A DNA stretch of 32,500 nt from an uncultured Pelagibacteraceae bacterium (GTDB lineage Bacteria; Pseudomonadota; Alphaproteobacteria; Pelagibacterales; Pelagibacteraceae), in NCBI GenBank assembly GCA_902521805.1, contig CABYTL010000008.1:1-32500 (forward strand), written 5' to 3'. The translations under genes were made by a program, and so were the position numbers. Positions 6,155 through 11,948 of this stretch are shown here, piece after piece. Each line of letters begins with the position of its first letter. Position 1 is the stretch's first letter. The notes beneath the pieces are model-generated. The model was given only the letters and a program-made list of their open reading frames with translations. It had not been told where the DNA came from and made no database searches.

Positions 6155-6727
6155 ATGTCCAATGCACCCTTAATGCCAATGGCCACAGCTGTATGGTTAG
6201 TAGAAAATACAACTCTCACATTTAAACAAATAGCAAATTTCTGCAAATTACATGAAGTAGAAATTCAAGGAATTGCAGATGGTGAAGTTGCAAAAGGTAT
6301 TAAGGCTTATAATCCAATTATATCTGGTCAATTAACTAAAGAAGAGATAGAGCTTTCATCAAGTGATAAAGATAGACCTTTGCAAATAAAAAGTATCGAC
6401 ATTGAAATTTCCAACACAGAAAAAAAAATTAAAAAATATATCCCCCTTTCAAAAAGACAAGATAAACCAGATTCAGCTTTATGGTTGCTAAAACAACATA
6501 ATATTTTAAAAGATTCTCAAATTGCTAAGCTAGTAGGTATCACAAAAAATTCTGTAACATCAATTAGAAATAAAAGTTATTGGAATTACAATAATTTAAA
6601 TCCTAAAGATCCAGTGGCTTTAAATCTATTTACTCAAAAAGATTTGGTAGAAGCAATCGAAAAAGCTGAAAGAAGAATAAAAAGAGAAAAAAAACAAAAA
6701 AAAAGAGAGACTTTTACTACAAGTTAA
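6155..6727 (+). CDS. trcR: DUF1013 family cell-cycle regulator (TrcR-like)
   Basis: This 190-residue protein matches the alphaproteobacterial DUF1013 family, annotated as cell-cycle transcriptional regulator TrcR. The conserved N terminus NAPLMPMATAVWLVENTTLT and the central LPLSKRQDKPD-like block (IPLSKRQDKPDSALWLLKQH) are clear. After these, DSQIAKLVGITKNSVTSIRN looks like a helix-turn-helix. The C-terminal 35 residues are charged and probably a helix. Its molecular role in SAR11 is unknown. It directly follows rpmE, and that pairing is common in alphaproteobacteria as far as I recall. Confidence 0.85.
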   Translation: MSNAPLMPMATAVWLVENTTLTFKQIANFCKLHEVEIQGIADGEVAKGIKAYNPIISGQLTKEEIELSSSDKDRPLQIKSIDIEISNTEKKIKKYIPLSKRQDKPDSALWLLKQHNILKDSQIAKLVGITKNSVTSIRNKSYWNYNNLNPKDPVALNLFTQKDLVEAIEKAERRIKREKKQKKRETFTTS

Positions 6728-6787
6728 TGAATAATGAATAAACTAATAGACTTAAAAAAATAAAAATGCTAGTTACTGATTTTTTTT

Positions 6788-6794
6788 GGAGGTG
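6788..6794 (+). promoter_or_regulatory. Strong Shine-Dalgarno of rpsU
   Basis: GGAGGTG is fully complementary to the anti-Shine-Dalgarno core. It shows that the long TTG and GTG starts at 6786 and 6792 lie inside the ribosome-binding site and cannot be the start. The starts I examined elsewhere in the window (gap, pgk, fba, efp, rpmE, rpmJ, pntAA, pseI and others) lack a comparable element. Confidence 0.75.
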
Positions 6795-6797
6795 CTT

Positions 6798-6992
6798 ATT
6801 AAGATAGAAGTTAAAGATAATAATGTAGAACAGGCTCTTAGAGTTTTAAAAAGAAAACTTCAAAGAGACGGTTTTTTTAAAGTTATAAAATTAAAAAATA
6901 CTTATGAAAAACCATCTGAGAAGAAAAAAAGAATTCTTCAAGAAAACATTAAAAGAGTCAAAAAATTAAATAAACTTAAGAATAGAATTTAA
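6798..6992 (+). CDS. rpsU: 30S ribosomal protein S21, probable ATT start
   Basis: bS21 sits near the 3' end of 16S rRNA and helps translation initiation. The protein from ATT 6798 would be MKIEVKDNNVEQALRVLKRK and onward, 64 residues. It aligns end to end with alphaproteobacterial S21 (MxVxVRDNNVxQALxxLKxK) and has the YEKPSEKKKR signature. The basic C-terminal tail is typical. The strong Shine-Dalgarno at 6788-6794 lies 5 bases upstream of this ATT (counted from GGAGG), which favours it over TTG 6786 and GTG 6792. ATA 6804 is the alternative. A 13-codon upstream frame (6766-6807) overlaps the start. The initiator tRNA follows six bases after the stop. Confidence 0.9.
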   Translation: MKIEVKDNNVEQALRVLKRKLQRDGFFKVIKLKNTYEKPSEKKKRILQENIKRVKKLNKLKNRI

Positions 6993-6998
6993 GTATAC

Positions 6999-7075
<77 letters not shown>

Positions 7076-7089
7076 AATATGATTAAATA

Positions 7090-8325
7090 ATGAATAATCA
7101 AGTAAGATCTTATTTAGACAAAACTATAATTATCTTATTTTCAATTTACCCGATTTCGATTCTTGCAGGTAATTTTTTTATTAATGCCTCCATCTTGATG
7201 ATTGGATCTATATTTTTTCTCAAAATTCTAAAAAGTGGTATCAATCTTTCACATTACAAAAGTACTTTATATCTTCTGCTATTTTTTTTTTTCTCTCTTA
7301 TTGTTAACCTTTTGTTTACTAACAACATATCGTTATCATATCAAAGAGTACTAAAATTCTTTTTTATAATACTATTCGTTATATCTTTTAAATACTTAAT
7401 ATTTAATCATTACCAGCGTCTAAAAATTATTTACAGAACATGGTTTATAATTTTTTTAATTGTTATATTTGATTTATCAGTGGAGCTATTTACTGGCAAA
7501 AATACATTTGGCCAAAGTGCAGTTTTTCTAGGCAGACTAGCAAGTTTTACAGGTGAAGAAAGTACAATAGGTTATTATTTTCTCGGTTTTTGCTTGATTT
7601 TTCTATCTTATGTTTACAACCAATCTAAAAATATTAGTTTAAATATTTTTTTAGCAATAATCTTTATTTTGATTTCTTTTCTAATTGGAGAAAGAGCCAA
7701 TTTTTTTAAAACTACAATTGCAATTATCTTATTCATATTTTTTGTTATTCAAATTAATTATAAGTACAAAATTTTGTCTATAGTTTTGTTACTATTAGTT
7801 GGTTATGTTACATTTTTAAATTTAGATAAGCATTATAAGTGGAGATATTTTTATCAAATAGATAAAATATATACAGATGGACTATCAAAATATTTAGAAA
7901 CATCAAAATATGGTGCCCATAAAAATGTTGCAAAAGAAATTTTTTTGGACAATCCATTTTTTGGTGTTGGCATCAAAAATTTTAGAATTGAAAGTGCTAA
8001 TAAAAAATATAATGATTTAGATCATAAAGTAAATCATTTGCGTGTTTCTAATCATCCTCACGATTTATATTATGAGTTTTTATCTGAAACTGGAATATTT
8101 GGATTCGTTTGTTTTTTAATTTTTATTTTGTCTTCAATTGTTCTCTCTTTAAAAAATTACCTACGTTTTAAAAACACCTATCAATTTTCTAGTATAATTT
8201 TTATAGTAATTACAATCCTTCCTATAGTGCCCACCGGTAGTTTTCTAGCGACTTTTACTTCTTCTATATTTTGGATAAATTATTGTATAATGATGGGATA
8301 TAACAATTTACAAAAAATTAAATAA
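7090..8325 (+). CDS. waaL: O-antigen ligase / Wzy-type membrane protein
   Basis: Integral inner-membrane protein of 411 residues with about 11 hydrophobic segments, the layout of WaaL/Wzy proteins. These move undecaprenyl-linked glycan to lipid A core or polymerise it on the periplasmic side. The conserved arginine after a transmembrane helix (IGERANFF) and a periplasmic loop with NPFFGVGIKNF and NHPHDLYYEFLSETGIFG are typical of the Wzy_C family. Ligase and polymerase cannot be separated by sequence alone. It follows the tRNA by 14 bases. Its 3' end overlaps the convergent transaldolase by 8 bases. It lies about 4 kb outside the polysaccharide island whose product it would handle. Confidence 0.85.
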   Translation: MNNQVRSYLDKTIIILFSIYPISILAGNFFINASILMIGSIFFLKILKSGINLSHYKSTLYLLLFFFFSLIVNLLFTNNISLSYQRVLKFFFIILFVISFKYLIFNHYQRLKIIYRTWFIIFLIVIFDLSVELFTGKNTFGQSAVFLGRLASFTGEESTIGYYFLGFCLIFLSYVYNQSKNISLNIFLAIIFILISFLIGERANFFKTTIAIILFIFFVIQINYKYKILSIVLLLLVGYVTFLNLDKHYKWRYFYQIDKIYTDGLSKYLETSKYGAHKNVAKEIFLDNPFFGVGIKNFRIESANKKYNDLDHKVNHLRVSNHPHDLYYEFLSETGIFGFVCFLIFILSSIVLSLKNYLRFKNTYQFSSIIFIVITILPIVPTGSFLATFTSSIFWINYCIMMGYNNLQKIK

Positions 8326-11833: not shown

Positions 11834-11944
11834 TTATAGGAGGAAAATTGCCATTAATACAAGTACTAATATTACTGCAACTGATCCCCATAAAACAAAT
11901 TTTGTGAAGTTATTCCAAGTATTTTTATGGCTCTCATTATCCAT
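11834..11944 (-). CDS. aa3-type cytochrome c oxidase subunit IV-like small membrane protein
   Basis: A 36-residue gene, below normal ORF cut-offs. The peptide begins MDNESHKNTWNNFTKF and continues into one hydrophobic helix, VLWGSVAVILVLVLMAIFLL. A short polar N terminus with a W/F-x-x-F-x-K motif before a single transmembrane helix ending in LMAIFL is the pattern of the bacterial aa3 oxidase subunit IV family (COX4_pro_2). In alphaproteobacteria that gene often lies just upstream of pntAA, as here. It ends nine bases before pntAA and starts four bases after rpmJ. The oxidase assignment follows family pattern and neighbourhood, not a search. Confidence 0.8.
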   Translation of the reverse strand: MDNESHKNTWNNFTKFVLWGSVAVILVLVLMAIFLL

Positions 11945-11948
11945 AAAA

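Follow-up and report, generated by a model that had tools for sequence, protein, structure and literature searches.

The gene of initiation factor IF3, infC, starts with AUU or AUA and is autoregulated through IF3, and pcnB starts with AUU. In Staphylococcus aureus, extended Shine-Dalgarno (SD) sequences are used with AUU and AUA starts, infC included, and the combination of an SD with AUU or AUA lowers initiation, according to the accessible part of that study (PMC13009471). The accessible part of a study on Flavobacterium describes an autoregulated rpsU gene, encoding ribosomal protein bS21, with a strong SD through which ribosomes without bS21 favour rpsU (PMC9976891). The SD-scarce groups listed in the accessible text of a further article are Bacteroidota classes and Mollicutes, Pelagibacter being unmentioned there (PMC10783764).

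Here we analyze rpsU in a stretch of 32,500 nucleotides of SAR11 DNA, which as a whole is called the window below (Table 1). Like the conserved genes with non-canonical starts infC, pcnB and cvfC1, this gene has a near-cognate start that is kept in its relatives and a strong SD. A literature search, which mostly did not extend to subscription journals, found no account of rpsU with an AUU start or of a non-canonical rpsU start in Alphaproteobacteria and, by title or beginning of the abstract, nothing on S21 with an unusual initiation codon or an infC-like AUU and nothing on Pelagibacter SDs, the SAR11 antiSD or a link between rpsU and the initiator tRNA; this is weak evidence that the finding on the rpsU start is new.

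Table 1. Features of the rpsU region and one further RNA motif, in window coordinates
Feature	Position	Strand	Basis or remark
Promoter-like TAGACT (6747-6752), 17 nt, extended -10 TG-C-TAGTTA (6767-6775)	6747-6775	+	Conservation
13-codon overlapping ORF, not taken as functional	6766-6807	+	Poorly conserved
T-run before the SD, probable region of the mRNA 5' end	6780-6787	+	Leader conservation
SD GGAGGTG	6788-6794	+	GG[AG]GG conservation; duplex of -11.6 kcal/mol with own 16S tail
rpsU, bS21 CDS, 64 codons	6798-6992	+	ATT 6798-6800, stop TAA 6990-6992; PF01165, alignment in relatives
tRNA-Met (CAT), initiator type	6999-7075	+	ARAGORN; 6 nt after the rpsU stop
pntA RNA motif	11887-11948	-	Rfam match, 78.9 bits

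The start codon of rpsU in SAR11

The gene lies in the order EF-P, inositol-phosphatase family, bL31, TrcR, rpsU, tRNA-Met, O-antigen ligase family. Its product was identified as bS21 by a match to the profile PF01165 (E 1.8e-15; 56.8 bits against a curated cut-off of 27), and it is the sole copy found with this profile in its own assembly, which is 83% complete. The first-pass annotation had placed the start at ATT 6798, behind a GGAGGTG within which two longer frames begin (TTG 6786 and GTG 6792), and all these coordinates are correct; the spacing between GGAGG and ATT is 5 nt.

The position of the start was anchored by TBLASTN in relatives, and the codon was then read there. Rates for the genus were taken only from 52 loci (31 and 21) found by family searches blind to the start codon, in which ATT was read 46 times, ATG three times, ACG twice and ATC once. 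The codon at the alphaproteobacterial S21 position is near-cognate in 49 of these loci, in line with the original placement, and ATG, far from occupying it in all close relatives, does so in three. A further 80 named loci (ATT 77, ATC 2, ATG 1) form a biased sample, since they were ranked by an identity that includes the first residue and favours ATT, ATC and ATA, and were excluded from the rates; the full genus set comprises 132 loci with 130 distinct leaders.

In five further genera of the family (g5, g6, g8, g9 and g10, without g7), all 15 loci carry ATT behind GGAGG, with spacers of 4, 5, 6 or 9 nt. The start of the sister family f2 lies one codon upstream and is ATA in 40 and ATC in one of 41 loci, followed by GTC, GTT or GTA; GGAGG stands 8 nt before this near-cognate codon in 40 loci, and GGGGG in one. 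Both the near-cognate start and the strong SD are thus kept across the SAR11 loci read.

TTG 6786 or GTG 6792, inside the SD, could instead be the true start, with a protein longer by four or two residues; a canonical codon, which standard gene callers would take, does stand four codons before ATT at most of the 132 loci in the genus (TTG in the window). We consider such an upstream start very improbable. The window TTG arises at the junction of the T-run and GGAGG and, being preceded only by the T-run, has no SD of its own; the spacers vary among genera, while ATT sits at the position of the alphaproteobacterial Met; and a scan from the upstream stop to the codon after the Met position found no in-frame ATG, GTG or TTG in 8 of the 132 genus loci, 12 of the 15 loci from other genera and 38 of the 41 f2 loci. 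ATA 6804 was rejected as another candidate because its distance to GGAGG is 11 nt and some relatives have ATC, ATT or GTA in its place.

The comparison of relatives makes it nearly certain, in our judgement, that synthesis of bS21 begins at AUU 6798, and this codon is presumably decoded as fMet. Callers restricted to ATG, GTG and TTG would misplace the N-terminus of SAR11 bS21 or, in most f2 loci, would have no legal start.

The surroundings of the start (6796-6806, TT ATT AAR ATA GA) are almost invariant among the 130 distinct genus leaders, silent positions included. Codon 3 is ATA in 129 of them, although ATA makes up one third of isoleucine codons. Two of these nucleotides, T at -1 and A at +4, might lengthen the pairing with the anticodon loop of the initiator tRNA. 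In f2, a hairpin covering the SD, an impression gained by eye, seems not to hold in all rows and was dropped.

The Shine-Dalgarno sequence and the weak start, within and beyond SAR11

The 16S tail of the same organism reads GGATTACCTCCTTTCT, hence its antiSD core is intact. The SD of rpsU had been called the clearest among the starts examined, and the pairing energies agree, the rpsU leader reaching -11.6 kcal/mol and the strongest pairing among 25 long ORFs with ATG starts in the window being -5.6. The use of SDs in general was surveyed in 400 kb (20 stretches) of one complete relative, where GGAGG precedes the first ATG of 4 of 309 long ORFs and an internal stretch, taken as control, has it in 1 of 309; with weaker SD-like motifs counted too, the numbers are 39 and 25. 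The mean leader pairing energy is -2.93 compared with -3.27 in the control, a measure blurred by taking the first ATG as the start. The genome to which the window belongs seems otherwise to use SDs little. The rpsU leader pairs at -11.9 in the sampled relative; among the 309 first-ATG leaders it is surpassed by one (-12.2) and closely followed by two (-11.8), which places rpsU close to the top but not alone there. It is the only convincing case of GGAGG with a near-cognate start in the sample, two further ORFs (one with ATA, one with ATT or ATA) having matched this search mechanically. The adjacent bL31 gene has ATG without GG[AG]GG in 86 of 86 readable loci of the 89 given.

The SD goes together with the type of start. 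GG[AG]GG is present within the last 14 nt in all 128 non-ATG loci of the genus and in none of the four ATG loci (Fisher p 8e-8, kinship among loci ignored). In a tree built from neighbouring DNA (66 rows), the well-supported branches cannot be reconciled with fewer than two changes of the ATG label. This count takes in only the ATG rows and, against them, the ACG and ATC rows, not the 58 others; an ACG row that retains the SD is the sister of one of the ATG rows. The simplest reading would be that ATG was gained twice and the SD was lost each time. Because start type and SD go together, the weak start appears to hold the SD in place. Four genus loci have dispensed with the pair, which means that a weak start with an SD is not indispensable.

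Starts outside SAR11 were read in 70 loci, one per alphaproteobacterial family, from the 107 genomes with a match among 115 searched. The assigned starts are GTG in 28, ATG in 18, TTG in 8 and near-cognate in 16; two of the latter have a canonical codon nearby, which leaves 14 without one near the Met position. The 70 loci comprise the 30 best-scoring and 40 chosen by hand, the last 20 of which tend towards low scores and small genomes, so the proportion of 14 in 70 should not be taken as an unbiased estimate. Directly before the Met position, the 14 loci have ATC (6), ATA (3), CTG (2), ATT (2) or ACG (1); such a near-cognate codon is found there in 14 of 14, compared with 1 of 45 loci in which the Met codon itself is canonical. 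A canonical in-frame codon, sought from the upstream stop, is missing in six of the 14 and lies further upstream in eight. The mean SD pairing of rpsU in this class is -12.3 kcal/mol for the 18 ATG loci, -11.0 for the 36 GTG or TTG loci and -10.9 for the 16 near-cognate ones; weaker starts outside SAR11 thus do not come with stronger SDs, and the trade-off is seen only in SAR11.

The gene of bS20 starts with ATG in 30 of 30 loci of the same class (the 30 best-scoring of 110). A phylum sample of 27 new loci, from 97 genomes with a match, gave ATG 21 times and TTG once with gamma-type probes (n=22), and GTG four times and TTG once with the alpha probe (n=5). Taken together, these counts make the avoidance of ATG in rpsU look like an alphaproteobacterial habit, with near-cognate starts most consistent in SAR11.

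Could AUU and the SD simply set a constant output of bS21 with no feedback? This is a serious rival, to which we assign a real, if minority, share of the probability: drift might then exchange either part provided that the product of the AUU and SD strengths stays right. The loss of the SD with ATG (none of 4 compared with 128 of 128), together with the two or more changes that the tree requires, is what such compensation predicts. The rival explains less well why 128 of the 132 loci in the genus have kept so unusual a pair, or why near-cognate starts recur in 14 of the 70 class families; ATG without an SD is the ordinary mode in the sampled genome, yet the pair has been retained.

Phage-borne bS21 genes were inspected for a weak start like that of the host (79 loci counted of 80 fetched; L134, L135, L386-L465). 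Near the aligned position, 54 have ATG, 13 have TTG and 12 have neither; to the eye, these 12 look like S21 within a longer frame. In contrast to the host gene of SAR11, the phage copies thus have ATG or TTG in 67 of 79 loci, often with a strong SD, and may escape host control.

Sequences flanking rpsU

The promoter-like pattern (a TAGACA-like box, about 17 nt and an extended -10) recurs at a distance of 18-22 nt from the start, upstream of it, in 131 of the 132 loci of the genus. A generic scan of 6600-7200 for sigma-70 promoters and terminators returned no promoter on the plus strand and no terminator, so the case for a promoter is its conservation. The spacing suggests a leader of roughly 13-16 nt, and T occupies positions -15 to -11 in 94-98% of the 130 distinct genus leaders.

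The 13-codon ORF overlapping the start, to which the first-pass annotation had drawn attention, has the coordinates given for it, but only 12 of the 132 loci of the genus have it. In 103 of the 132 there is an 11-codon ORF in a different frame, with ATG (47) or GTG (56) as its start and a TAA that overlaps the last base of the rpsU start codon. If this ORF were translated, ribosomes might re-initiate at AUU, and the overlap of its stop in so many loci speaks for such coupling. We give this very little credence: the start of the short ORF coincides with the TG of the conserved extended -10, hence the ORF would begin outside the likely transcript, which starts downstream; both its start and its peptide vary (84 distinct peptides), the constant residues being those over the T-run, the SD and the start; and the window, like 12 of the 132 loci, carries the 13-codon form in a different frame. 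The short ORF is probably a by-product of the fixed spacing between promoter and start.

Downstream of rpsU lies a tRNA-Met gene, which we take to be an initiator because of its 5' C, CAT anticodon and AGG/CCU anticodon stem; the usual stem of initiator tRNA is GGG/CCC. All 113 genus loci whose sequence extends 110 nt or more past rpsU carry a tRNA-Met gene of this type 0-8 nt after the rpsU stop. One match each to this tRNA was found in four genomes (G000, G012, G061 and G037, among them its own assembly and the complete family genomes G012 and G061) by a search allowing up to 3 mismatches in 49 nt, which more diverged copies would escape. The distance is 17-18 nt in g5, 43 nt in g10 and 227-246 nt, on the same strand, in nine loci of g8 and g9 (L374-L382). 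No tRNA was found beside rpsU in f2 (0 of 37) or in the two g6 loci examined, and in the class sample one follows rpsU in 1 of 30 loci with enough sequence, a tRNA-Ala.

The invariable neighbourhood in the genus and the single match in the complete genomes G012 and G061 would suit an explanation in which transcription is high for the sake of the initiator tRNA and is offset by poor translation of rpsU. We regard this as improbable. The near-cognate start of f2 and the ATT of the two g6 loci occur with no tRNA nearby, which means that the link is not needed for a weak start; the tRNA is nearly absent from the class neighbours of rpsU and is of another type in the one exception; and a strong SD would defeat the purpose of poor translation.

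Proposed control of bS21 synthesis and comparison with known systems

The pair of a weak start and a strong SD is likely, judging by its conservation, to be a selected translational control element. A strong SD in a genome otherwise poor in SDs, and its loss in loci with ATG, would fit autoregulation. AUU is a weak initiation codon, as infC, pcnB and recent S. aureus cases show, and the strong SD would offset this in rpsU; translation of the gene would then depend both on SD-antiSD pairing and on the stringency of start-codon selection. With 30S subunits short of bS21, in which the antiSD would be freer, or with low IF3, more bS21 would be made until the balance is restored. Feedback by bS21 and/or IF3, suggested by analogy, is plausible though less likely than not, and we propose it tentatively. 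Taken as a whole, an AUU start that belongs to a control element is in our view the best explanation, and we hold it with moderate confidence.

A broader version, which we consider speculative and rather unlikely, is that rpsU is cotranscribed with the initiator tRNA and, as the first gene of that transcript, senses start-codon stringency, which would make the unit a homeostat of translation initiation in SAR11: initiation at AUU would increase with a scarcity of IF3, an abundance of initiator tRNA or a lack of bS21 on 30S subunits. If so, alphaproteobacterial rpsU would be a second class of genes, after infC, that uses near-cognate starts for sensing. If the proposed control is real, it would place a translational control point within the ribosome of one of the ocean's most abundant bacterial groups and extend the autoregulation of bS21 past Bacteroidota in a new form, a weak start with a strong SD. 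It raises the testable question of whether bS21 occupancy or IF3 sets start-codon stringency in vivo.

The nearest parallel in start codon is infC, likewise a gene of the translation machinery with a conserved near-cognate codon behind an SD, which encodes another protein. Read by eye, infC of f2 (14 loci: L293, L296-L301, L303, L304, L306, L309, L316, L318 and L319) has an apparent ATA start (ATC in L316) behind AAGGAG or a similar motif, and infC of the window's genus (16 loci) has GTG directly after a stop, with no SD. The AUU signal is therefore not common to infC and rpsU in this genus, and a shared control by IF3 finds support only in f2. The S. aureus genes cvfC1 (AUU) and ccpN (AUA) are similar in that an extended SD directs initiation to a conserved codon with reduced output; as far as the accessible text goes, they differ in belonging to Firmicutes, in being unrelated genes and in having experimental proof (PMC13009471).

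The nearest parallel in gene is rpsU of Flavobacteriales and other Bacteroidota. The accessible main text of that study does not mention a non-AUG start, and AUU does not occur in it. The extended SD of rpsU in Bacteroidota, through which bS21 is autoregulated, has 9-13 bp and pairs below -13 kcal/mol, which the SAR11 SD does not reach (about 6-7 bp, -11.6 to -11.9 by RNAduplex; program and tail differ between the studies, so that the energies are only roughly comparable). According to the same part of the source, rpsU has the single top SD in Flavobacteriales, which is not so in the 400-kb SAR11 sample. Sequestration of the antiSD in Bacteroidota involves bS18 and bS6 besides bS21; the bS21 chain of 7jil aligned to residues 3-49 of the SAR11 protein only. 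What the two groups share, as far as the available text of that work describes it, is a genome in which SDs are scarce, an intact antiSD, a strong SD on rpsU and a bS21 that sits beside the 16S tail (PMC9976891).
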